DNA from: Pontibacter virosus
Lineage (GTDB): Bacteria; Bacteroidota; Bacteroidia; Cytophagales; Hymenobacteraceae
DNA: 64,000 nt
Assembly: GCF_003096355.1 (NCBI RefSeq)
Contig: NZ_QEKI01000002.1
Location: 310,001 to 374,000 of the forward strand
Reading direction: 5' to 3'
The notes under the pieces are model-generated. The model searched no databases and was not told the origin of the DNA. It saw nothing but the letters and a program-made list of their open reading frames with translations. The position numbers were made by a program, and so were the translations under genes. Shown in pieces: positions 11,572 through 27,848 of this stretch. The stretch's first letter is position 1; each line of letters begins with the position of its first letter.

Positions 11572-12843
11572 TTACACAAGCAGGCTAAGAAAGTCTTGCT
11601 TCCCGTTCAGGTACTCATAGTTGAAGCCTTCCGCGTCCATGCGCGCCTTGATAACTTCTACATCGTGCGGTTGCTTTACTTCTATACCTATAAAAACAGG
11701 TCCTTTTTCTTTGTTGTTCTTCTTAATATACTGGAAATGGATGATGTCATCCTGCGGATGCAGCACTTGATTCACAAACGTGCGTAATGTGCCCGGCTGT
11801 TGACTGAACGTGACCATGAAGTAGTGTTTGAGGCCCTGGTGCCTCATAGCCCTTTCCTTGATGTCCTCCATGCGCGTGATATCGTTGTTACTGCCGCTGA
11901 TGACGCACACCACGTTCTTATCCACTAACTGGTCCGCATAGGATTTGAGGGCTGAAATGCTTAGTGTACCAGCAGGCTCCAGCACTACGCCATCTTCATT
12001 GTACATCTTCAGAATGTCTTCGCAGATCTGCCCTTCCGGCACCAGCACAATATCATCCAGTAGTTCTCTGCAGATGCCAAAGGTGAGTTCGCCTGGACAT
12101 TTGACGGCAGCCCCATCTACAAAGCTGTCGATCGAATCAAGCGTCAGGCGCTGCTGTTCTTTCACTGACCTGTACATAGACGGGGCCCCGAGCGGCTGTA
12201 CGCCAATCAGCTTGGTTTTCGGGCTCAGCTGCTTGAATACACTTGCAACACCCGAGGCCAGTCCGCCACCACCGATGGGCATGAACAGGTAGTCAATCTG
12301 ACCAACCGCTTCCCGCAGGATTTCCATACCTACAGTCGCCTGGCCTTCCACAATCGCCAAATCGTCGAAGGGTGGAATAAATGTACTGCCCCGGCTATCG
12401 CAAAATTCTTTGGCAGCCTGAAAGGTATCATCATAAGTCGCACCCGTCAGGATAACTTCCACCTTGTCTTTGCCGAAAAGGCGCACTTTGTTCACCTTCT
12501 GAGCAGGTGTGGTGGCCGGCATAAAAATGTGCCCCCTGATGCCAAGCAGCTGGCATGCGTAAGCTACACCCTGCGCATGGTTGCCGGCACTGGAGCAAAC
12601 GACTTCATTTCCGCGCTGCTCGGGTGGCAGGGTAGCCATTTTGTTGTAGGCACCCCTGATCTTGTAGGAGCGCACCACTTGCAGGTCTTCCCGCTTCAGG
12701 TAGATATTCGCACTATAGAGCTGCGACAGCCACAGGTTTTGCAAAAGGGGCGTTTTCGTGACGACGCCCCTTAGCCTTTGCGACGACTGTTCCACTTTTT
12801 CCAGCGAAACAAGGAAATCGGTATCGGTTTCTACTTTATTCAT
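11572..12843 (-). CDS. ilvA: Threonine deaminase (threonine ammonia-lyase)
   Basis: This enzyme converts L-threonine to 2-oxobutanoate and ammonia, the first step specific to isoleucine. Its 423 residues include the PLP lysine K61 in SYKIRGAYN, a phosphate-binding GGGGLASG loop at about 195, CSSAGNHAQG near 85, and one C-terminal ACT-like domain from about 335 (YFMVTFSQQPGTLRTFVNQV) for feedback control. The single ACT domain matches the shorter IlvA type. It is the last gene of the minus-strand ilvEDBNCA run, 6 nt after ilvC, so it should be controlled by the tandem attenuators upstream of ilvE. Confidence 0.94.
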   Translation of the reverse strand: MNKVETDTDFLVSLEKVEQSSQRLRGVVTKTPLLQNLWLSQLYSANIYLKREDLQVVRSYKIRGAYNKMATLPPEQRGNEVVCSSAGNHAQGVAYACQLLGIRGHIFMPATTPAQKVNKVRLFGKDKVEVILTGATYDDTFQAAKEFCDSRGSTFIPPFDDLAIVEGQATVGMEILREAVGQIDYLFMPIGGGGLASGVASVFKQLSPKTKLIGVQPLGAPSMYRSVKEQQRLTLDSIDSFVDGAAVKCPGELTFGICRELLDDIVLVPEGQICEDILKMYNEDGVVLEPAGTLSISALKSYADQLVDKNVVCVISGSNNDITRMEDIKERAMRHQGLKHYFMVTFSQQPGTLRTFVNQVLHPQDDIIHFQYIKKNNKEKGPVFIGIEVKQPHDVEVIKARMDAEGFNYEYLNGKQDFLSLLV

Positions 12844-12849
12844 TTGAAT

Positions 12850-13896
12850 TTATTTACTGACCGAGCGCAATTCTCTTACCCGCGCGCCTGTCTGCCACAA
12901 CTCTGATTCCCGCAACTCCTGCAGCTCTGCTTCCAGTTCCTGACGATAGCCCGGCGTAGTGCCTCGCTGTATCGTCCGCTCCGCCTCAGCGCCGGAGGCC
13001 ACACTATCATACAGTTCGTTCAGCACAGGAAGTGTAGCTTCTTTGAATCTCCCTTTCCAATCAAGAGCACCACGTTGCGCGGTTACTGAACAGTTGGAGA
13101 ACATCCAGTCCATACCGTTTTCGCCTACCAGCGGCACCAGGCTCTGGGTAAGCTCCTCTACTGTTTCATTGAATGCCTCTGAAGGAGAGTGGCCGCGCTG
13201 GCGCAGCACCTGGTACTGGGCTTCGATGACACCAGCCAGCGCCCCCATCAATATACCGCGCTCGCCGGTCAGGTCGCTGTATACCTCTTTCTGGAAATCA
13301 GTTTCGAACAGGTAGCCGGAACCGATGCCAATCCCCATGGCGATGGCCTTTTCATAAGCTTTACCTGTTGCATTCTGGTACACGGCAAATGAAGAGTTGA
13401 GACCGCCCCCCTGCAGGTATAGCCTGCGCAGGCTGGTACCGCTACCCTTAGGGGCTGCCAGTATGACGTCAACATCAGCAGGCGGCACGATGCTGGTGTG
13501 GTTATGGAAGGTAATGCCGAAACCATGGGAAAAGTACAGAGATTTACCGGCAGTCAGTCTTTCTTTTAGAGTAGGCCATACAGCGATCTGCCCCGCGTCC
13601 GAGAGCAGGTTAGCGATGATCGTGCCACGCTCAGCTGCTTCTTCAATTGTAAACAGGGTTTCTCCTTCCACCCAGCCGTCGTTTAGAGCCTTTTGCCAGG
13701 AAGAGGAATTCTTACGTTGCCCCACGATTACGTTGAAGCCGTTGTCGCGGAGGTTAAGTGCCTGCCCCGGGCCCTGCACGCCATAGCCGATCACAGCGAT
13801 TACCTCGTCTTGCAGTACCTCCCGCGCTTTTGCAAGTGGGAATTCTTCACGCGTTATTACAGTTTCGTCTACTCCTCCGAATTTGATAGTTGCCAT
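12850..13896 (-). CDS. ilvC: Ketol-acid reductoisomerase
   Basis: It catalyses the magnesium- and NAD(P)H-dependent isomeroreduction of acetolactate and acetohydroxybutyrate in valine and isoleucine synthesis. The 348-residue protein has an N-terminal Rossmann domain with G37-Y-G39-V-Q-G42, an NHTSIVPPADVDVILAAPKG segment, and the knotted helical C-terminal domain carrying metal and substrate residues (SDLTGERGILMGALAGVIEA, then CSVTAQRGALDW). The length fits class I. It lies between ilvN and ilvA in the ilv run. Confidence 0.95.
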   Translation of the reverse strand: MATIKFGGVDETVITREEFPLAKAREVLQDEVIAVIGYGVQGPGQALNLRDNGFNVIVGQRKNSSSWQKALNDGWVEGETLFTIEEAAERGTIIANLLSDAGQIAVWPTLKERLTAGKSLYFSHGFGITFHNHTSIVPPADVDVILAAPKGSGTSLRRLYLQGGGLNSSFAVYQNATGKAYEKAIAMGIGIGSGYLFETDFQKEVYSDLTGERGILMGALAGVIEAQYQVLRQRGHSPSEAFNETVEELTQSLVPLVGENGMDWMFSNCSVTAQRGALDWKGRFKEATLPVLNELYDSVASGAEAERTIQRGTTPGYRQELEAELQELRESELWQTGARVRELRSVSK

Positions 13897-13967
13897 AAGG
13901 TTTTTGGTTTAATGGGTTGGTTTAGATTTTCAGATATGTTTTAAAGAATTTATCTCTTGTCTGCGGC

Positions 13968-14462
13968 TTAGCCTGCCATGGTCATGGCACCGGATTTTGA
14001 AACCTCCTGCACTCCGTATGGCTGTAGTGCCTCGAGCAGCGCAAGAGATGAACTGGCATCCCCTGCCTTCTCCAGCACAATACTCTCTGAGTCGGCAGTC
14101 AGCAGCCGAGCCTGGTGAGCCAGCAAGATATGCTCCAGCACCGGCTGCGGCAGCTGCCTGCGGTTGATCCTATACAAGGCTACCGGCATCCATGCCACTT
14201 CCTCCTGTCGCAGGACAGCCGCATGTGCCACTCCGATAATTCGTCTCAGTTCTTTGGTGATCTGCTCTGCCCAACGCTGGGTTGTTTTGGCTTCGATGCG
14301 ATAGTGATAGTTTGCCTCATCATCCGGCCTGGAGGCAATCAGGTTTTGAAAGGCAATATTCCGGCGCGTGAAAAGCTGCACGATACGTCCCAGGATCGTT
14401 TTGTCCGCTGTTGCACTGATCGTGAAGATGAATGACTCTTGCATTGTCTTAGTGTTAATCAT
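13968..14462 (-). CDS. ilvN: Acetolactate synthase small (regulatory) subunit
   Basis: This 164-residue protein has an N-terminal ACT domain (about 9-80: FTISATADKTILGRIVQLFT, then NIAFQNLIASRPDDEANYHY) and a short C-terminal domain. It binds the catalytic subunit encoded by ilvB just upstream, stimulating it and giving valine feedback sensitivity. Sequence conservation outside the ACT core looks weak, as is usual for Bacteroidota IlvN. ATG 14462 is used; an internal Met at codon 7 is an equally possible start. The gap to ilvB is 64 nt. Confidence 0.87.
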   Translation of the reverse strand: MINTKTMQESFIFTISATADKTILGRIVQLFTRRNIAFQNLIASRPDDEANYHYRIEAKTTQRWAEQITKELRRIIGVAHAAVLRQEEVAWMPVALYRINRRQLPQPVLEHILLAHQARLLTADSESIVLEKAGDASSSLALLEALQPYGVQEVSKSGAMTMAG

Positions 14463-14526
14463 TTGAAAAAAGGAAATCTCCCGAGGTTCTCCCCATTGGA
14501 TTCTTTATAAAGCTGGTTGGTAGCGC

Positions 14527-16260
14527 CTACTCCAGCCGGATCTCTGAGACACAGGCTCCCGTAGGCACCATGGGAAAGACATTGTCCTCCTTGCCTACGA
14601 TCACCTCCAGCACCTCTGCATGCGGGCTGTCGAGAACAGCCTCCAGCATGGCTTGCAGTTCTTCCCGGCGTTCAACTTTTCTGGCCCGAATGCCATAGCC
14701 CTGCGCTATTTTCACAAAGTCCGGATTTTCCATTTCTACAAAAGAGTAGCGCTTCTCGAAGAATAGCTGCTGCCACTGGCGCACCATACCCAGGAAGTTA
14801 TTGTTCAGGATGATCACCTTCACAGCCAGTCCGGTTTGCATGATCGTGCCGAGTTCCTGGATGTTCATTTGAAAACCACCATCCCCGATCACGGCAATCA
14901 CCTGGGCCTCTGGACGTCCGGCCTTGGCGCCAATGGCAGCCGGAAGGGCAAACCCCATGGTGCCGAGGCCACCGGAAGTAACATTGCTGTTGCGGCGCCG
15001 ATAGTTAAAATAGCGCGACGCGACCATTTGGTGCTGCCCTACATCCGTCACCAGGATGCTGTCTGCTTCTGCCGTCTCGTTGATGAAGCGGAGCACCTCT
15101 CCCATAGTGATCATCTTTTCATCAGCAGGAAACAGGTCATGGCGCACCACCTTCTCATATTCCTTCTCCATACACACTTGGAATTCCTGCAGCCACTCCT
15201 TGTGCTCATTTTCCTCCGCAAGAACAGACAATGCCGCCAACGCTTCTCTGGCATCTGCCACCAAAGCCACGTCTGCTTTGATGATCTTGTTGATCTCGGC
15301 AGGGTCCAGGTCGATGTGTATGACTTTAGCCTGCTTGGCGTAGGTATCGGTGCGGCCGGTCACCCGGTCATCAAAACGCATCCCTACAGCAATGACCAGG
15401 TCAGCTTCGTTTGTTTTCACGTTAGGTGCGTAGTTGCCATGCATACCCAATAGCCCTACGTTAAGCGGATGTTCGGAAGGTATAGCCGACAGGCCCAATA
15501 AGGTAGTGGCTACCGGAATATCGGCTTTCTCAGCCAGCGCCAGCAACTCCTCATGCGCTCCTGCCAGGTGTACCCCCTGACCGGCCAGAATGAGTGGCTT
15601 TTTTGCACCATTGATAAGGGCCGCAGCCTGCTCCGCCGCTGCAATGCTGAGCGGCGGTTTGGGTGCATAGTGTTTAACCTCTGTGCATCTCTCATAGCTG
15701 AAAGGTGCTTTTGCAAATTGTGCGTCTTTGGTAATATCGAGTAGCACCGGCCCTGGCCTGCCGCTCTGAGCCAGATAAAAGGCTTTGCTGATAGCTGCCG
15801 GAATATCAGCAGCGTCCGTTACCTGTATATTCCACTTGGTAACCGGCGTCGTAATGCTGATTACATCAGCTTCCTGAAAAGCGTCCGTACCCAACAGGGG
15901 AGCTGCCACCTGTCCGGTGATGCATACCAGGGGCGTAGAATCTGCCTTGGCATCCGCAAGCCCGGTTACCAGGTTAGTAGCCCCTGGACCAGAGGTCGCA
16001 AAGCATACACCTACTTTACCGGTTACCCTGGCAAAGCCCTGTGCCGCATGAATGGCACCCTGCTCGTGGCGCACCAGGATGTGGTTGAGTTGATCAGCAT
16101 AATCGTAGAGCGCATCGTATATCGGCATGATCGCACCGCCCGGGTAGCCGAAGATTGTTTCTACACCTTCAGCCAGCAGGGAGAGGATGACTGCCTCTGC
16201 CCCTGACACAGTTTTCGCATTATCAGGCAATGCCGGGGCTGGTTTCTCTTTCCTTGACAT
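14527..16260 (-). CDS. ilvB: Acetolactate synthase large (catalytic) subunit
   Basis: This 577-residue thiamine-diphosphate enzyme condenses pyruvate with pyruvate or 2-oxobutanoate. Visible signatures are the activating glutamate in [35 protein letters not shown], and the ThDP-Mg motif [15 protein letters not shown] followed by [12 protein letters not shown]. The order of PYR, central FAD-binding and PP domains is intact. Its start overlaps the end of ilvD by 38 nt, indicating translational coupling. Confidence 0.96.
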
Positions 16261-17941
16261 AGGTTTCTTCTAAATCTGTTATACATCCCTTACTGGCGTC
16301 GCTCACTGTTCTGATGTACTTGAGCAGGACGCCTTTGGCTGCTCCTGCAGCCGGCCTTACCCATTTGTCGCGGCGCAGGCTCAGCAGCGCGTCTTCCACA
16401 TGCAGGTGAATGGAGTTGGTCATGGCATTGAGTGAGATCCAGTCGCCGTCCTCTACCAGGGCCAACGTGCCGCCGTCGTAAGCTTCGGGACAAACGTGCC
16501 CAATAACAAAGCCATGGGTTCCGCCAGAAAAGCGACCGTCGGTGATCAGGGCTACTTTATCTCCCAGGCCTGCACCCATGATGGCAGAAGTAGGCTTCAG
16601 CATCTCCGGCATACCGGGTCCACCCTTAGGACCCACATAGCGGATTACCACCACATGGCCCGCCTTGATCTTCTTCTCTGCTATACCTTCGTTCAGCTCT
16701 TCTTCGGAATTGAACACAATGGCGGGGCCTTCAAAGGTTAATCCTTCTTTGCCTGAGATCTTTGCCACCGACCCCTCCGGAGCCAGGTTGCCATACAGGG
16801 TCTGGATGTGTCCGTCTGCCTTGATGGGGTTCGAAAGTGGGCGAAGCAGGTCTTGCTCCTCACCCAGCGGTCGTATACCTGCCAGGTTTTCAGCCACGGT
16901 CTTGCCCGTCACTGTCAGCAGATCGCCTGTAAGCAAACCTTCGTTCAGCAGTGTTTTCATCACAGCCGGAACGCCTCCCAGTGCAGACAAGTCTTCCATC
17001 AGGTATTTGCCACTTGGCTTCAGGTCAGCCAGCACGGGCACCCTGTCGCTCACCGACTGAAAATCCTGTAGGCTCAGTCTTACACCTGCGGCATGTGCAA
17101 TCGCGATCAGGTGCAGGACGGCATTGGTAGAGCCTCCGAGTACCGTGATCAGGACCAGGGCATTCTCGAAGGCCTCCCTCACCAGTATATCCTGCGGCTT
17201 CAGGTCCATTTCCAGCAGGCGGAGCAGGTAGTCTCCCGTGCTCAGGCATTCTTCTTTTTTGGACTGGCTGACAGCGGGAGCCGAAGAAGAGAAAGGTACC
17301 GACATACCCAGTGCTTCCGCGGCAGACGCCATGGTGTTGGCCGTATACATACCGCCACAGGCACCCGGTCCCGGACAGGCATTGCGGATAACGCCCCTGT
17401 AATCCTCTTCTGAAAGTTGCCCGTTCAGCTTTTTGCCGTAGGCCTCGAAGCACGAAACGATGTTCAGCTTTTCACCCTTGAACTCACCACCTTTGATCGT
17501 GCCGCCATACACCATGAGCGAAGGACGGTTCAAGCGGGCCATGGCCATGAGTGAACCCGGCATGTTTTTGTCGCAGCCTACCACACAGGCCAGAGCGTCA
17601 TAGTTATGAGCACCGGCTATGGTTTCGATGGAGTCGGCTATGATCTCCCTTGACACAAGCGAGTAACGCATACCTTGTGTACCGTTGGTGATGCCGTCGC
17701 TCACGCCGATGGTATTGAAGCGTAGTCCCACCATGCCAGCCTGGTTCACCCCACGCTTTACCTCATCGGCCAGGCTATTGAGGTGCATGTTGCAGGTGTT
17801 GCCATCAAAGCCTGTGGAGCAAATGCCAGCAAAAGGTTTGCGGAGATCAGCTTCCGAAAGACCCGCGCCGATCAGCATGGCCTGAGAGGCTGGCAGGCTG
17901 TCGTCCTGGGTATAGATGCGGCTGTATTTATTCAATGCCAT
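16223..17941 (-). CDS. ilvD: Dihydroxy-acid dehydratase
   Basis: It dehydrates dihydroxyisovalerate and dihydroxymethylvalerate to the 2-keto acids that IlvE aminates. Starting at ATG 17941 ([14 protein letters not shown]) gives 572 residues, the normal length; an in-frame start 75 nt upstream adds a basic, non-conserved tail and was not used. Iron-sulfur and metal ligands are visible in [17 protein letters not shown] and [20 protein letters not shown], with [19 protein letters not shown] near the C-terminus. It follows ilvE by 268 nt, a stretch in which I see no gene. Confidence 0.95.
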
Positions 17942-18209
17942 TGTTATTCTCTTTAATCTCTTTTCAAATTGGTAGCAGTGTCTGCTGCCGTACTTGCTGC
18001 AATTTCGGCTTTTCACTGTCGCTCCTGAAAACTGCTTTTATACCTGCTTACTATTTCTAACTGTAGCAACAACAAGCTTAATTAACTGACATCAAGCACT
18101 TTAAATCCTGCACACTACAATCTCTAAATGTAAAAACCAGCCAACTTTAGTTGCTTGCAGGCTATCGCTACATGGATGGGGAGGCAGTTGGCGCTACTCT
18201 GGATACAGG

Positions 18210-19103
18210 CTAGTGCGTCAGCACAGGGCTGGTAGCTCGTCCTGTCACCAGTGCTGAATATTTCGCCGCCAGCACAGCGCCAATAGTGTTTTCAAAGGGG
18301 TTCCTGAAAACGTGCTCGCCTATGGAAGATACCCCCACTACCTCAGCGGCAGTGCCCGTCAGGAAGGCTCCTTCTGCCTCGTTCAGCTCCTCCGGTGTGA
18401 AGAATCGCTCATGCACTTTGATGCCAGACGCTTGTGCCAGCTCGATGACGGTGTTGCGGGTTATACCCTTGAGAATGCTGCCTGCCGGCGCTGTGTGAAG
18501 CTCCCCGTTTTTTTCATAGAAGAAATTGGAGCCCGGCCCTTCGGCTACGAAGCCGTTCATATCAAGCAACAGCGCCTCGTCGTACCCTTTGTTTTTGGCA
18601 TCTGAGCTGGCGATAATGGAATTGGCATAATGTCCGGCTATCTTGGCCTCGATGGGCACCGCTCTTGGGTTAGGCCGCTCGTAAGGGGAGACCATCAGGC
18701 GCAGACACTGGTTCCCGAGGTATTTGCCCCACTCCCAGGCAGCAATAAAAACGTTGCTCGTGGCGGGTGCTTTTATACCCATGTTTGGCTCACCGGCATA
18801 TACCAGCGGACGGATGTAGGCTTCTGTCAGGTTGTTTTGCTCAAGCAGTTGGTAGGTGAAGTCTGTCAGCTCCTCCACAGAATATGCCAGAGGCAGGCCC
18901 ACCGACCGGCAGGAATAGTGCAGGCGTTCGTAATGCTCTTTCGCTTTGAAAATCCGCGTGCCCGCTGGTGTGCTGTAAGACCTGATGCCTTCGAAAGCGG
19001 CATACCCATAGTGCAGCGACTGGGCATAGACACTACAAACGGCCTGGTCGGCTTTTACATAATTGCCGTCCAGAAAAACAAGCGTGTTGTTATTAAAATA
19101 CAT
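18210..19103 (-). CDS. ilvE: Branched-chain amino acid aminotransferase
   Basis: This fold-type IV PLP enzyme of 297 residues catalyses the last step for Ile, Val and Leu using glutamate. Recognisable parts are SVYAQSLHYGYAAFEGIRSY, the catalytic-lysine region IEAKIAGHYANSIIASSDAK, DEALLLDMNGFVAEGPGSNF and FLTGTAAEVVGV. It is the first structural gene after the two tandem attenuators (19141-19444), so it and the genes behind it should be expressed when charged Ile or Val tRNA is short. Confidence 0.95.
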   Translation of the reverse strand: MYFNNNTLVFLDGNYVKADQAVCSVYAQSLHYGYAAFEGIRSYSTPAGTRIFKAKEHYERLHYSCRSVGLPLAYSVEELTDFTYQLLEQNNLTEAYIRPLVYAGEPNMGIKAPATSNVFIAAWEWGKYLGNQCLRLMVSPYERPNPRAVPIEAKIAGHYANSIIASSDAKNKGYDEALLLDMNGFVAEGPGSNFFYEKNGELHTAPAGSILKGITRNTVIELAQASGIKVHERFFTPEELNEAEGAFLTGTAAEVVGVSSIGEHVFRNPFENTIGAVLAAKYSALVTGRATSPVLTH

Positions 19104-19140
19104 CGTAGCTAATTATTTAAGGTTTAGGATTGGTATGGGT

Positions 19141-19182
19141 AAACAAAAAAAGCCTTTCTGACCGGGTAGTCAGAAAGGCTTT
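19141..19182 (-). terminator. Attenuator terminator 2 of the ilv operon
   Basis: A 14-bp perfect stem (19149-19162 with 19169-19182) with a 6-nt loop, followed on the minus strand by a run of U. It lies between leader peptide 2 and ilvE. 19161-19167 (ACCGGGT on +) in the loop and stem base is complementary to 19211-19217 (ACCCGGT on +) inside the last codons of leader peptide 2, giving a 7-bp alternative pairing. Confidence 0.85.
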
Positions 19183-19207
19183 CTATAGGCAATAGAAGTC
19201 CGTTTCT

Positions 19208-19270
19208 TCAACCCGGTGGCTGAGGAATAAGAATAATAATGACAATAATGATTGCTGCTATTGCGAGCAT
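19208..19270 (-). CDS. ilv leader peptide 2 (Ile-rich)
   Basis: This 20-codon frame on the minus strand reads MLAIAAIIIVIIILI, then PQPPG and stop. Eight of 20 residues are Ile, with one Val and two Leu. It precedes attenuator terminator 2, and its final Pro-Pro-Gly codons overlap the sequence complementary to that terminator. The known logic of leader-peptide attenuation would be that a ribosome stalled at Ile codons changes which hairpin forms. It is the second of two such peptides in this leader. Confidence 0.82.
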   Translation of the reverse strand: MLAIAAIIIVIIILIPQPPG

Positions 19271-19290
19271 AGTTTTAATAATCAAAGGTG

Positions 19291-19327
19291 TTAAAATAAA
19301 AACAGCCGTCTCTTGTGGGAGACGGCT
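19291..19327 (-). terminator. Attenuator terminator 1 of the ilv operon
   Basis: A 9-bp stem (19304-19312 with 19319-19327) with a 6-nt loop, followed on the minus strand by GTTTTTATTTT. It lies between leader peptide 1 and leader peptide 2. Loop sequence 19312-19318 (CTTGTGG on +) is complementary to 19393-19399 (CCACAAG on +) within leader peptide 1, a 7-bp candidate antiterminator. Confidence 0.83.
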
Positions 19328-19360
19328 GCCAAAGTATAGCTTATAATTTTACTTTCAGTT

Positions 19361-19444
19361 TCAGCAAACCATCTCCACGCCTTGTGTAATTACCACAAGG
19401 TTAATAATGCTAATAATGACGATGGCTGTGAGTTGGTTTTTCAT
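19361..19444 (-). CDS. ilv leader peptide 1 (Ile/Val-rich)
   Basis: This 27-codon frame on the minus strand reads MKNQLTAIVIISIINLVVIT, then QGVEMVC and stop. It has six Ile, five Val and two Leu. It begins only about 11 nt after a TACATTTG promoter box. The codons for INLVVITQG contain a self-hairpin (CCTTGTG with CACAAGG on the minus strand) whose 5' arm can instead pair with the loop of terminator 1. That gives two mutually exclusive folds, as expected for an attenuator. Confidence 0.82.
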   Translation of the reverse strand: MKNQLTAIVIISIINLVVITQGVEMVC

Positions 19445-19454
19445 ACAGTGCTGG

Positions 19455-19462
19455 CAAATGTA
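19455..19462 (-). promoter_or_regulatory. -7 box of the ilv leader promoter
   Basis: On the minus strand this reads TACATTTG, an exact TAnnTTTG match. Transcription would start only a few nt before the leader peptide 1 ATG at 19444. The -33 region is weak. The 137-nt gap from leuB to the leader otherwise holds a small hairpin (CAGCAG/CTGCTG near 19530-19550) and A/T runs. Confidence 0.6.
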
Positions 19463-19581
19463 ATGCATTTTTGACGGGAGCCATACTGTTCAACAGATTT
19501 TTTTTAAAAAAACTTGTTTGCCTGCTACAGCAGAATGTTCCTGCTGTATACCTCCACAGGCTGCGAGCACCACTGTTGTAG

Positions 19582-20700
19582 TTAGATAATCGTGCTCAGG
19601 CCCACTTCAATATTTTCTTTTTGAGGCACGCTCCCTACACCCTCCAGCACACAGTAGGCAATAAAACTGCCCACTTGTTCCGTGGTATACGGAGAAACGG
19701 CATTCAGCTCAGGCGTCAGCACCTCGTTGCGTAAGGCATTCTGCACTGCTTCCTTTACAGCGTCTGCTTCCGCCTGCAGGCCAAAGTGCTCCAGCATCAT
19801 CGCGCCGGACAGGATGGCTGCGATTGGGTTGGCTATACCTTTGCCTTTTGCCTGTGGGTAAGAGCCGTGAATCGGCTCAAAAAGCGACACGATATTTCCT
19901 ACCGAAGCCGAAGGCAGCAGCCCCAGCGAACCGGCGATGACAGAAGCTTCGTCCGACAGAATATCCCCGAACATGTTCTCTGTCAGCATGACGTCAAACT
20001 GACGGGGGTTCAGGATCAGCTGCATGGCGGCGTTGTCCACAAACAGGTAATCTACTGCTACGGAAGGATACTCCGGTGCTATACCTTGCACGACCTCCCG
20101 CCACAAGCGTGACGTTTCGAGCACGTTAGCTTTATCCACCAGAGTCAGCTTGTTGCGTCTGTTGCCCGCAGCTTGAAAGGCAAGGTGAGCAATGCGGGTG
20201 ATCTCTTCCCGGTTGTAGGTGCAGTGATCGTACGCTTCAGCAGCGGTACGGCCTTTTTCACCGAAGTAAATACCACCGGTCAGCTCCCTGAAAATAAGCA
20301 TATCGGCTCCGGCAATGCGGTCGTTCTTTAGCGGTGAGTGGTCCAGCAGCACATCGTAGGCTGTTACCGGACGTATGTTGGCGTACAGTCCCAGTGACTT
20401 GCGTAACTGCAACAGGCCCTGCTCCGGCCGTACCTTGGCCGCAGGATTGTTGTCATACTTCGGATCGCCAATAGCGCCCAGCAGTACCGCGTCGGCATAG
20501 TAGCAGGCCTCCAGCGTTTCTTCCGGTAGCGGGCTCCCTGTGGAATCAATGGCGCAGGCGCCCATCAGGTGCTTTTCAAAGGTAAACCGGTGGCCAAACC
20601 GATCGGCTACGGCCTCCAACACCTTGATCGCTTCCTCACAGACCTCAGGTCCGATGCCATCGCCGGGCAGTACAATGATCTTTTTATTTAATATGTCCAT
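19582..20700 (-). CDS. leuB: 3-isopropylmalate dehydrogenase
   Basis: It oxidises and decarboxylates 3-isopropylmalate to 4-methyl-2-oxopentanoate in leucine synthesis. The 372 residues contain [20 protein letters not shown] at the N-terminus, [16 protein letters not shown], the catalytic-lysine region [16 protein letters not shown], and the Asp-rich metal site [20 protein letters not shown]. It is the last gene of the leuACDB run and overlaps leuD by 13 nt. The ilv attenuator leader follows 137 nt downstream on the same strand. Confidence 0.96.
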
Positions 20701-21284
20701 GCTCTTGTGCTTTCGTATGCTGTTATCGCCTCTTTCTGGCTCACTAAAAAATCAATGTCATCATAGCCTTTGATCAGGCACTCCTTCTTGTAGGGATCTA
20801 TCTCAAAGGAAATGCGCTCCCCGCTTGCGGGTAGGTATAGCTCCTGCTCCGGCAGGTTCACTTCAAATTCTGTCTGCGGGTCTGCCTCTACCAGTGCGAA
20901 CAGGCGCTGCAGCACCTCATCCGTTACCTGCAGGGGCAGGAGGCCGTTGTTGAGGGCATTGCCCCGGAATATGTCGGCGAAATAGCTGGATATGACGACC
21001 CTGAACCCGGCATCATAAATGGCCCAGGCGGCGTGTTCGCGGCTAGATCCGCAGCCAAAATTCTTGCCGGCCAGAAGTACCTGCCCCTTGTAGCGGCTGC
21101 TGTTCAGCACAAAGTCCGTTTTGGGTTCGCCGTCGCTGTCGTAGCGCCAATCCCGAAAAAGGTTCTCACCAAAGCCCTCCCTGGAAGTGGCTTTCAGAAA
21201 GCGGGCAGGTATAATCTGGTCGGTATCTATATTTTCGATCGGCATGGGAACAGCTCCCGTCCGTATGATTTCAAACTTCTCCAT
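20688..21284 (-). CDS. leuD: 3-isopropylmalate dehydratase small subunit
   Basis: This 198-residue swivelling subunit of isopropylmalate isomerase works with Leu[17 protein letters not shown] and [20 protein letters not shown] are the family signatures. It shares one base with the leuC stop and overlaps the leuB start by 13 nt, so the three genes are almost certainly translated from one message. Confidence 0.95.
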
Positions 21285-22678
21285 TAGTTCAGGTATTGGG
21301 TTATGTCCACGATCTTTCCCTCCACAGCCGTGATGGCCGCTACCAACGGACTGGCCAGCAGCGTGCGCGATCCCGGCCCCTGCCGTCCTTCGAAATTCCG
21401 GTTGGAGGTGGAAACACAGTAAGCGCCCGCCGGAATCTTGTCTTCGTTCATGGCCAGACAGGCACTGCAGCCCGGCTCGCGAAGCTCAAAACCTGCATCG
21501 GCGAGTAACTTGTCCAGGCCTTCCTCACGGGCCTGCAACTCTACCTGCTTCGAGCCCGGTACAATGATCGCCTCCACATGGCCGGCTTTCCGCTTGCCCT
21601 TCACATACTCGGCTACCTGGCGCAGGTCCTCGATGCGGGAGTTGGTGCAGCTGCCGATGAACACATAGTTGACCTCTTTGCCGAGCAGGGACTCACCCCG
21701 AGCAAAGCCCATGTACTGCAGGGACTTGTCGAAACTGGCTGCCTCACTGGCTGGTACACTGGCTGGTATTGTGTCGTTTATAGCAATGCCCATACCCGGG
21801 TTGGTGCCATAGGTGATCATGGGGGCAATGTCGGCCGCCTCAAAGTGCAGTTCGGCATCAAACTCTGCTCCTTCTTCGGTATAAAGGGTGTTCCAATAAG
21901 CCAGCGCCTGCTCCCATCGCTCACCCTGCGGCGCATGCGGCCGGCCCTCCAGGTAGGTATAGGTATTCTCATCCGGCGCGATCATACCGCCGCGGGCGCC
22001 CATCTCGATACTCATGTTGCACACCGTCATGCGTCCCTCCATGCTCAGTGAGCGGATGGCGCTGCCGGCATACTCCACAAAATAACCGGTGGCGCCACCG
22101 GTGCCCAATTTGGCGATCACATACAGGATCAGGTCCTTGGCGGTCACGCCTTTGCGCAGTTCTCCCTCCACCGTGATGCGCATCTTGCGAGGGCGGCTGA
22201 GCAGCAGACACTGCGTTGCCATTACCTGCGCTACCTGGCTGGTGCCGATGCCAAAAGCAATGGCTCCGAAGGCGCCGTGCGTTGAGGTATGGCTGTCGCC
22301 GCACACGATGGTCATGCCTGGCTGCGTGATGCCCAGTTCCGGTCCGATGACGTGTACGATACCCTGGTTCGGGTGTCCCAGGCCGAAAAGCTCTACCCCA
22401 TACTTTTCACAGTTAGAAGTCAGCTTATCTACCTGAAACCGTGACAACTGATCCTGAATGGGCAGGTGCTGGTTGCGGGTGGGCACGTTGTGGTCTGCGG
22501 TGGCCACAATCTGGGCCGGGTTGTACAACGGCAGGTTGCGGGCCTCCAGTTCATCGAAAGCTTGGGGACTGGTCACTTCATGGATCAGGTGCCTGTCGAT
22601 GTAAAACACATCCAGGCCACCCGGTATGGAACGCACCACATGGGCATCCCAGATCTTATCAAATAATGTCTTCTTCAT
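21284..22678 (-). CDS. leuC: 3-isopropylmalate dehydratase large subunit
   Basis: This 464-residue aconitase-type subunit carries the [4Fe-4S] cluster. Cluster cysteines are visible in [20 protein letters not shown] and [17 protein letters not shown], and substrate motifs in [20 protein letters not shown]. It lies between leuA (1-nt gap) and leuD (1-nt overlap). Its length is normal. Confidence 0.96.
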
Positions 22679-22679
22679 C

Positions 22680-23846
22680 CTAATTCTCTACTAACAGGTT
22701 TGCCTTCTCTACCAGCACATGCAGATCCTTGTCATGCACTTCTTTTGCACGGTCTGCCACTTCCAGAAAGGATGCATACGCTTTGTCAAGGGTGCTCTTA
22801 TCAAAGTTGTAACCGATTTTCTGCAGTCGGAAGGCCAGGGCAGCACGCCCGGATCTTGCTGTCAGCACGATGGAAGAATCCGGCACGCCTACGTCGCGCG
22901 GATCAATGATCTCGTAGGTTTCGCGGTGCTTGATCACGCCGTCCTGGTGTATGCCGCTGGAGTGGGAGAAGGCATTCGCCCCCACGATGGCCTTATTGGG
23001 CTGCACCGGCATGCGCATCATGTGCGAAACCATGGCCGAAGTCTCAGAAAGCAGTTTGCTGTTGATGTTGGTCTGCAGTTTCAGGTATGGGTGCTGGCGC
23101 ATGATCATCACCACTTCCTCCAATGCCGTGTTGCCGGCACGCTCCCCTACCCCGTTGATGGTACATTCGATCTGTCGGGCGCCGTTGATAGCTCCCGCAA
23201 TGGAGTTGGCCGTAGCAAGGCCCAGATCATTATGGCAGTGTGTAGAAAGGGTCACTCGCTCGATGCCCCTCACATTATCCGCCAGGTACTTGATCTTCGC
23301 GCCATACTCCTCAGGCAGGCAATAGCCTGTCGTGTCTGGTATGTTGAGCACAGTGGCGCCTGCTTTAATGGCTGCTTCGCACACCTGGGCCAGAAAGGTA
23401 TTGTTGGTTCTGCCTGCGTCTTCGGCATAGAACTCTACATCTTCTACAAACCGCTTTGCCAGCTTCACCGCCTCCACGGCACGTTCCAGCACTTTCTCCT
23501 GGGTCGTGCGCAGCTTAAACGCAATGTGCGATTCTGATGTGCCTATACCTGTGTGGATGCGCGGGCGCTTTGCGTGCGTAAGTGCCTCGGCTGCTGTAAG
23601 GATGTCCTGCTCTACTGCTCTGGACAGCCCGCAAACGGTGATTTCTTTTGTCTGGGCCGCAATCGCCTTTACCGCCTCGAAATCGCCAGGGCTCGATATC
23701 GGAAAACCGGCCTCTATCACATCCACCCCCAGCAGCTCTAACTGCCTTGCAATCACCAGTTTCTCATCCACATTCAACTTGCAGCCTGGCACTTGCTCAC
23801 CATCCCGCAGCGTGGTATCAAATATTTGTATTTTCTGGACCGACAT
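22680..23846 (-). CDS. leuA: 2-isopropylmalate synthase, short form
   Basis: It condenses acetyl-CoA with 2-oxoisovalerate, the first leucine-specific step. TIM-barrel signatures include [40 protein letters not shown], and [16 protein letters not shown]. The protein has 388 residues, whereas typical LeuA has about 500, and it ends shortly after the subdomain region. The C-terminal LeuA dimer domain that binds leucine is therefore missing. Homocitrate synthase is an alternative reading, but the leuCDB neighbours argue for LeuA. It is the first gene of its run and divergent from 24013. Confidence 0.9.
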
Positions 23847-27568: not shown

Positions 27569-27604
27569 AAAAAAAAGCGCCCCGGAGTATGATTCCGGGG
27601 CGCT
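27569..27604 (-). terminator. Attenuator terminator 2 of the phe operon
   Basis: An 11-bp GC-rich stem (27576-27586 with 27594-27604) followed on the minus strand by eight U, ending about 8 nt before the pheA ATG. 27595-27601 (CCGGGGC on +) is complementary to 27639-27645 (GCCCCGG on +) in the last codons of leader peptide 2. Confidence 0.87.
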
Positions 27605-27630
27605 GGTGATAACTTTAGGTTAAAGTATAA

Positions 27631-27711
27631 TCAATACAGCCCCGGGCGTTTACCAAAAAAGTAAAAGCTAAAACCAAAGCCGTAAAAGAAATTCTGCTGT
27701 GTAGTAAGCAT
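27631..27711 (-). CDS. phe leader peptide 2 (Phe/Tyr-rich)
   Basis: A 26-codon frame on the minus strand reads MLTTQQNFFYGFGFSFYFFG, then KRPGLY and stop. Seven Phe and three Tyr occur in 26 residues. Its last codons (Arg-Pro-Gly-Leu) carry a 7-nt sequence complementary to the 5' arm of terminator 2, giving a candidate antiterminator that a stalled ribosome would expose. It directly precedes terminator 2 and pheA. Confidence 0.85.
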   Translation of the reverse strand: MLTTQQNFFYGFGFSFYFFGKRPGLY

Positions 27712-27725
27712 GCTAATTGCTGTTT

Positions 27726-27759
27726 TAAAATAAAAAAGGCCCCGCTGGTTGCGGGGCCT
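27726..27759 (-). terminator. Attenuator terminator 1 of the phe operon
   Basis: A 9-bp stem (27737-27745 with 27751-27759), 5-nt loop, followed on the minus strand by TTTTTTATTTT. It lies between the two phe leader peptides. A GCGGG segment just after the stop of leader 1 can pair with CCCGC in the 5' arm. Confidence 0.85.
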
Positions 27760-27788
27760 CTATATGGTTACATATACCTTTTCCCGCT

Positions 27789-27848
27789 TTAGTCCTGTGG
27801 AGGAAAAAAGTAAAAAAAGAAGGTATAAGACGTCTGTTGCTTGTTCAT
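27789..27848 (-). CDS. phe leader peptide 1 (Phe/Tyr-rich)
   Basis: A 19-codon frame on the minus strand reads MNKQQTSYTFFFYFFPPQD and stop. Five Phe and two Tyr form a near-continuous aromatic run before Pro-Pro. It begins about 9 nt downstream of a promoter-like box and is followed by terminator 1, so it is the first sensing unit of the tandem attenuator. Confidence 0.83.
   Translation of the reverse strand: MNKQQTSYTFFFYFFPPQD

Follow-up and report, generated by a model that had tools for sequence, protein, structure and literature searches.

Two candidate isoleucine/valine leader-peptide attenuators in series before ilvEDBNCA of Pontibacter virosus and their recurrence in Bacteroidota

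Introduction

The attenuators of the Escherichia coli trp, his, and ilvGMEDA operons each consist of one unit, in which a leader ORF carrying runs of regulatory codons is combined with an intrinsic terminator and a mutually exclusive antiterminator. Textbook amino-acid operons carry one attenuator. Leaders with more than one regulatory unit have been described in other settings. The Salmonella mgtCBR leader contains two short ORFs, each with its own attenuator; these respond additively to two signals, ATP and proline, and their stem-loops are unlike intrinsic terminators (PMC3641672). In mefA-msrD, two leader-peptide attenuators (MefAL and MsrDL) act on msrD in response to the same inducer, an arrangement that its authors call a "double-lock"; the signal is an antibiotic, and the second attenuator lies past mefA and affects msrD only (PMC10314930). 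The rimP leader of several Gammaproteobacteria has a second tandem terminator upstream with a potential antiterminator, and the available text does not mention a leader peptide (PMC2965389). The tandem riboswitches of Bacillus clausii metE likewise contain a pair of sensors and a pair of terminators arranged serially, and there the RNA senses metabolites directly and without a leader peptide (PMC3641672). Within Bacteroidota, leader-peptide attenuation has been suspected before amino-acid operons of Flavobacterium psychrophilum; the main text of that report does not mention ilv or isoleucine and does not describe the leaders as tandem (PMC9723704). A 2010 survey, in its available text, places leader-peptide systems only in Proteobacteria, Actinobacteria, and, newly, Firmicutes (PMC2965389), and the available text of an Actinobacteria survey contains no tandem case (PMC1262725). 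The literature searched, which included few subscription papers and no supplements, yielded no report of serial attenuators for the same signal before amino-acid operons.

Here, we describe a 64,000-nt stretch of Pontibacter virosus DNA (contig NZ_QEKI01000002.1, positions 310,001 to 374,000), hereafter the window, in which two candidate leader-peptide attenuators precede the ilv genes. These units share with the E. coli trp, his, and ilvGMEDA attenuators a leader ORF with regulatory codons, an intrinsic terminator, and a mutually exclusive antiterminator, but they differ in being two in series and in lacking a Shine-Dalgarno-like motif. In contrast to mgtCBR, the same amino-acid class appears twice and the terminators are intrinsic. 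Unlike in mefA-msrD, both units precede the first gene and the predicted signal is an amino acid.

Results

Architecture of the ilv leader region

The 478-nt gap between leuB and ilvE on the minus strand of the window contains, in order, a -7 promoter box, leader 1, terminator 1, leader 2, and terminator 2, and is followed by ilvE, which starts at 19103 (Table 1). The elements named in the original prediction, namely the promoter box, the frames of 27 and 20 codons, the two terminators, and ilvE, were all confirmed by direct reading, and a serial pair of candidate Ile/Val leader-peptide attenuators before ilvEDBNCA is the best reading of the region. IlvE, IlvD, IlvB, IlvC, and IlvA passed their NCBIfam cut-offs and IlvN did so with the Pfam model of the acetolactate synthase small subunit (PF10369), so the order ilvEDBNCA holds. 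Upstream, the names leuC and leuD rest on Pfam aconitase domains plus gene order. No terminator was seen between leuB and leader 1 in a scan of 18900-19700. The leader region (19104-19455) folds far more stably than expected by chance (z = -5.35; 0 of 100 shuffles as stable). Neither a T-box nor any other Rfam family matched at the gathering threshold across the window, and a permissive Rfam search of 19000-19700 returned just two chance-level matches on the opposite strand (E = 1.9 and 3).

Table 1. Candidate regulatory features and neighboring genes, in coordinates of the window
Feature	Position	Strand	Basis
leuA, leuC, leuD, leuB, upstream of the leaders	19582..23846	-	NCBIfam; Pfam
Promoter -7 box TACATTTG	19455..19462	-	Sequence; Bacteroidota consensus TAnnTTTG
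Leader peptide 1, MKNQLTAIVIISIINLVVITQGVEMVC, 27 codons + stop	19361..19444 (ATG 19444, stop 19361)	-	Sequence reading
Local hairpin within leader 1, candidate pause/protector	19380..19400 (19400-19394 with 19386-19380)	-	Compensatory changes
Antiterminator 1, 5' strand, end of leader 1	19363..19379	-	Duplex with 19329-19314, -20.2 kcal/mol
Terminator 1, 11-bp hairpin then T-rich tail	19302..19329	-	-20.0 kcal/mol; consensus scan
A-rich start context of leader 2	19271..19285	-	Position -3 is A in the window
Leader peptide 2, MLAIAAIIIVIIILIPQPPG, 20 codons + stop	19208..19270 (ATG 19270, stop 19208)	-	Sequence reading
Antiterminator 2, 5' strand, spans leader 2 stop codon	19194..19217	-	19215-19194 with 19183-19164, -14.3 kcal/mol
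Terminator 2, 16-bp hairpin then T tail	19148..19183	-	-23.3 kcal/mol; consensus scan
ilvE, branched-chain aminotransferase, first gene past the leaders	18210..19103	-	NCBIfam NF005146 and TIGR01122, above cut-off
ilvD, ilvB, ilvN, ilvC, ilvA, remainder of the gene row	11572..18016	-	NCBIfam; ilvN via Pfam PF10369
Phe leader 1 MNKQQTSYTFFFYFFPPQD (27848-27789) + terminator (27760-27736)	27736..27848	-	Sequence reading
Phe leader 2 MLTTQQNFFYGFGFSFYFFGKRPGLY (27711-27631) + terminator (27604-27576)	27576..27711	-	Sequence reading

Leader 1 has six Ile and five Val codons, and leader 2 has eight Ile and one Val. A further in-frame ATG of leader 1, at 19468, sits upstream of the -7 box, so the ATG listed in Table 1 is the likely start. 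The end of leader 1 is predicted to base-pair with terminator 1, along its 5' arm and into its loop, and the resulting antiterminator is nearly equal in energy to the terminator (-20.2 versus -20.0 kcal/mol). This pairing replaces the one first proposed for unit 1, a 7-nt complement between 19399-19393 and 19318-19312. That complement is present in the window but is not kept in relatives, where the terminator loop varies; its leader segment forms a local hairpin instead, and the stronger antiterminator is the duplex of 19379-19363 with 19329-19314. The local hairpin lies between most of the Ile codons of leader 1 and the antiterminator 1 strand. Among the 12 sequences of a close-relative alignment (11 of the genus of the window and one Cesiribacter), 97.6% of its cells are paired, with changes on both sides at three of seven pairs, and terminator 1 has compensatory changes at two of 11 pairs. 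Counted jointly, the two hairpins have a covariation score that exceeds 500 of 500 shuffles, while their number of pair types does not. A pausing or protective role is conceivable for the local hairpin. Val23 and Val26 of leader 1 fall within the antiterminator 1 strand, so a ribosome stalled there would hide that strand.

In unit 2, terminator 2 supplies the predicted 3' strand of the antiterminator through its 5' arm and loop. The 7-nt complement proposed for this unit (19217-19211 with 19167-19161) lies within this longer antiterminator, and 91.7% of its cells are paired across the 12 species. Since antiterminator 2 is far weaker than terminator 2 in the window (-14.3 against -23.3 kcal/mol), it would need to act kinetically.

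Promoter and translation starts

The transcription start is predicted at about 19450, on the scale of the F. psychrophilum box, which sits at -12 to -5 (PMC9723704); the 5' UTR ahead of leader 1 would then be about 6 nt. Of the 42 tandem loci, 29 have a perfect TAnnTTTG in the 60 nt preceding leader 1 and one (L054, whose first unit is doubtful) has it ahead of leader 2, which suggests that one promoter probably feeds both units. Single leaders have a perfect box in 10 of 45 cases. The box lies at most 13 nt from the leader 1 ATG in 20 of the 29 tandem loci. Among 532 other large ORFs, taken mechanically and of unverified gene status, 40 have a perfect box, five of them within this distance of the ATG. 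Leader 1 would thus often be nearly leaderless. Leaderless mRNAs make up 5.5% of those examined in F. psychrophilum (PMC9723704). In five Chryseobacterium loci (L103, L105, L107, L108, and L110), leader 1 begins 4 nt past the -7 box, predicting a leaderless mRNA. The near-leaderless start is not general: in the 18 of 28 trp leaders that have a perfect box, it lies 25-58 nt upstream. For phe, a perfect box precedes nine of 41 first and one of 15 second leaders, and the phe box of the window matches five of six positions.

Leader 2 has a different start context. Of the 42 tandem loci, 35 have A at position -3, and in 40 loci the fraction of A at -3 is 0.82 for leader 2, 0.40 for leader 1, and 0.31 for the background; upstream of leader 2 these loci are A-rich from -12 to -3. 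Related loci entered the tests of these start features as independent cases, which makes the p-values too small. In Flavobacterium johnsoniae, an A at this position favors translation initiation (PMC6847099). None of 125 leader contexts contains AGGA, GGAG, or GAGG, and no Shine-Dalgarno-like motif was found in them. The original prediction had asked how leader 2 is translated once terminator 1 is read through; the likely answer is its own A-rich start context, which would make it independent of the ribosome on leader 1.

Conservation and coevolution

Persistence of the reading frames and stems in close relatives was a test named at the outset, and both are kept. In the 12-sequence alignment, the lengths of both leaders differ by multiples of three in all sequences, and in one genome (G129) the frame of leader 1 extends two codons further. 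Differences by codon position number 446, 357, and 593 in leader 1, where the third position is highest, and 503, 309, and 490 in leader 2, where it is not. Amino-acid changes outnumber silent changes in both leaders, and many are among Ile, Val, and Leu. The codon-position counts alone do not prove coding for either leader, leader 2 included. Covariation of the antiterminators was assessed in the same sequences. For antiterminator 1, pairing is equalled in 256 of 500 shuffles and covariation in 121; for antiterminator 2, shuffles are as good in 10 of 500 cases for pairing, 42 for covariation, and 415 for changed pairs. The within-genus counts do not clearly exceed shuffles because the 12 sequences hold too little variation.

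Comparison between lineages gave a clearer signal. Arm exchange and codon composition were evaluated in the 41 loci with exactly two units, including the window and excluding the three-unit loci L073 and L090. The pairing of a locus's own arms was -14.44 in unit 1, compared with -10.21 (sd 0.42) after exchange of arms between loci, and -14.81 in unit 2, compared with -10.07 (sd 0.43); in neither unit was any of 2000 permutations as strong, with related loci treated as independent in the statistical tests. Relative to 100 shuffles of the leader, antiterminator pairing had a mean z of -3.01 in first units (31 of 40 below -2), -3.12 in second units (27 of 40 below -2), and -2.99 in single units (n = 45). 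The arm-exchange values indicate that antiterminator pairing coevolves between lineages. Moreover, leader 1 prefers its own terminator in 36 of 41 loci and leader 2 in 40 of 41; L068, the units of which are near copies, is an understandable exception. Since the leaders mostly prefer their own terminators, the units appear to be largely separate switches rather than one nested structure.

Each unit presents the sequence hallmarks of a ribosome-mediated transcription attenuator. The leader ORF is rich in codons for the product and kept in relatives, and an intrinsic terminator lies between the leader and the first gene. The stall codons lie upstream of the antiterminator strand, with the stop codon at or near it, and the predicted antiterminator and terminator are mutually exclusive, the within-genus covariation alone not being significant.

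Recurrence and origin of tandem ilv units

The original prediction was confined to this ilv leader, a scope that proved too narrow, as the design is found again elsewhere in Bacteroidota and, within the window, ahead of pheA. We collected 111 ilv loci, the best 30 of 200 genomes plus the best 80 of 225 relatives, and removed 10 that were identical over the last 150 nt, leaving 101 distinct loci. Upstream of ilvE, 14 of these have no unit, 45 have one, 40 have two, and two have three. At least two units are therefore present in 42 of 101 loci, or 43 when the window, entered as a short copy (L001) with one unit, is read at full length with its two. Since the loci were chosen as best matches, these fractions are not phylum frequencies. 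The counts retain L049 and L054, in which the first unit is doubtful, and L090, in which the first of three looks spurious. Among full-length regions, 39 of 93 have at least two units, compared with none of their 279 shuffles (three with one unit) and none of 103 regions preceding other large ORFs from the same loci (two with one unit); the latter were kept from 274 candidate regions by requiring an intergenic gap of 150 nt.

At least two units were found in Pontibacter, Cesiribacter, Chryseobacterium, Crocinitomicaceae, Fluviicola, Bizionia, Gelidibacter, Aureisphaera, Kordia, Roseivirga, and Flavobacterium, as well as in a genome labelled Bacteroidales; several of the tandem-bearing genomes are metagenome-assembled. 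Three Hymenobacter loci and 16 loci of apparently the same genus have one unit in 15 cases and none in four. Within the genus of the window, where IlvE is 96% identical between the window and Pontibacter amylolyticus, the ilv leaders of L005 are not recognizable and leader 2 of L010 is eroded. A quick IlvE tree implies at least 14 changes between one and two or more units, partly reflecting detection error and with gain not distinguishable from loss.

Aequorivita xiaoshiensis (L073) carries three Ile-rich units in the 700 nt upstream of ilvE. With an identity of 0.93, its units 2 and 3 look like products of a recent duplication. The units of L066 and L068 have identities of 0.91 and 0.86, respectively, and such near-identical copies show that local duplication can generate new units. 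Judged by this similarity, the common ancestry of the units in these two loci and of units 2 and 3 of L073 is clear. The two units of the window are 0.51 identical (z = 2.6).

Amino-acid composition of the ilv leaders

Pooled over the 41 two-unit loci, leader 1 contains 228 Ile, 119 Val, and 39 Leu among 907 residues, and leader 2 contains 246 Ile, 84 Val, and 81 Leu among 778. The Ile codons are concentrated 6-41 nt before the antiterminator strand (196 of 228 in leader 1 and 235 of 246 in leader 2). In leader 1, roughly one Val codon in four falls inside or at that strand.

Phe and other amino-acid operons

A second candidate tandem attenuator, with Phe/Tyr-rich leaders, precedes pheA (start 27561) in the window (Table 1); PheA matches prephenate dehydratase with E = 2.2e-47, below the model cut-off. 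Two units were called in 15 of 59 phe loci, of which L138 and L153 were judged spurious, leaving 13. The tandem form occurs in all nine loci with PheA at least 77% identical (L112 and L142-L149) and in four of seven from another genus of the family. The remaining 21 loci fetched in the genus, where 30 of 34 matches were covered, have one unit in 18 cases, none in two, and a doubtful two in one. By comparison, 28 of 30 trpE loci in the genus (L201-L230), sampled from 50 genomes with a match, have one WWW leader with a strong terminator ahead of the gene; second trp units were called in four loci but discounted, as they contain no WWW run. Stacking is thus selective by operon and lineage.

No tandem was supported at two further operons. 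Before hisG, a single weak candidate was found in 13 of 30 loci, some of them clearly spurious, and two units in none. These loci (L171-L200) contain His-rich short frames, for example one ending in HVHHFHHSS, with weak terminators. For leuA, no terminator-like hairpin is present within the 250 nt upstream.

Discussion

The region before ilvEDBNCA is most probably read as two complete ribosome-mediated attenuators in series on one transcript, both sensing charged tRNA for Ile, with Val. We put the probability of this reading at about 0.82. The candidate anatomy, its recurrence across loci, and the coevolution of its arms are observed in the sequences; we infer one transcript, ribosome stalling, termination in the cell, and a multiplicative output. 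When Ile is plentiful, a ribosome at the stop codon would cover the 5' strand of the antiterminator, leaving the terminator to form and end transcription. Under Ile shortage, the ribosome would stall upstream, and the freed strand would pair with the 5' arm of the terminator, allowing RNA polymerase to continue. A polymerase that had read through terminator 1 would meet the same test at unit 2, served by another ribosome initiating at the A-rich start site of leader 2. Total readthrough would be the product of two probabilities, giving a low leak and a steeper response, that is, a double lock. Multiplying readthrough in this way would lower basal expression and raise the fold change, and it would also lower the maximum. 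The AND logic suggested at the outset gains indirect support from the perfect boxes, found at leader 1 in 29 of 42 loci against one at leader 2, and from the preference of leaders for their own terminators (36 and 40 of 41).

An unlikely alternative is that the units sense different things, leader 1 Ile and Val and leader 2 Ile and Leu, so that several amino acids are integrated, as in mgtCBR. The resemblance to mgtCBR extends to two ORFs with separate attenuators, presumably on one transcript to judge by the promoter boxes; on codon content alone, the predominance of Ile in both pooled leaders (228 and 246) speaks against different signals. Val is nonetheless relatively more frequent in leader 1, both in the window, with five residues in leader 1 and one in leader 2, and across the 41 loci, where it accounts for 119 of 347 Ile plus Val residues in leader 1 and 84 of 330 in leader 2. 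Leu is more frequent in leader 2 (81 against 39), and in single loci such as L011 and L042 Val exceeds Ile in leader 1. However, Val23 and Val26 of the window lie within the antiterminator strand, and the Leu residues of leader 2 are often near the leader start, as judged by eye. A response to two amino acids, also raised in the original prediction, is accordingly the less likely option; with Ile the most frequent of these residues in each leader, a double lock on a single signal accounts for the data better than two separate signals would.

The other explanations are less probable still. If one unit were active and the other a decaying duplicate, the recent duplications with units 0.86-0.93 identical (L066, L068, and L073), the lost leaders of L005, the erosion in L010, and the abundance of single units (45 of 101 loci) would be readily understood; yet the units of the window share just 0.51 identity while each has retained its frame length and terminator among close relatives, and most leader ends find their best partner in the terminator of the same unit, which makes this account improbable. 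It is about as improbable, or slightly more so, that each leader has its own transcription start and the units work in parallel rather than in series. Such an arrangement could use CACCTTTG, which in both the window and L032 lies 12 nt ahead of leader 2 and matches five of six consensus positions, and the spacing of 50-125 nt between terminator 1 and leader 2 in several loci; the near absence of perfect boxes before leader 2, where the one instance follows a doubtful first unit, argues against it. Tandem terminators that merely insulate leu from ilv, with short frames arising by chance in AT-rich DNA, are very improbable. Upstream leuB shows no terminator of its own in the scan, but tandem calls are absent from the 279 shuffles and the 103 other upstream regions, indels preserve the frame, leader ends coevolve with terminator arms, and by eye the upstream frame is not that of leuB in the tandem loci L009, L011, and L034. 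Two serial attenuators for one signal remain the preferred reading.

The individual elements belong to classical leader-peptide attenuation, and what appears new, against the literature searched, is their serial, same-signal arrangement, recurrent in Bacteroidota. A broader interpretation, which we hold tentatively and at slightly less than even odds, is that serial leader-peptide attenuation for a single amino-acid class is a regulatory design used repeatedly in Bacteroidota, at ilv, in some lineages at phe, and with three units in Aequorivita. At ilv, translation would often begin at a near-leaderless start in leader 1 and at an internal start with A at -3 in leader 2, so that two modes of initiation would serve two checks of one signal. 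The result would be a cooperative, low-leak amino-acid sensor that works without a repressor protein. A large phylum without Shine-Dalgarno sequences seems to stack two attenuators, and once three, per signal in at least two operons. This makes it testable whether stacking sharpens the response, how leaders are translated without Shine-Dalgarno sequences, and whether transcription is coupled to translation in Bacteroidota. The double arrangement suggests a double lock on amino-acid production.
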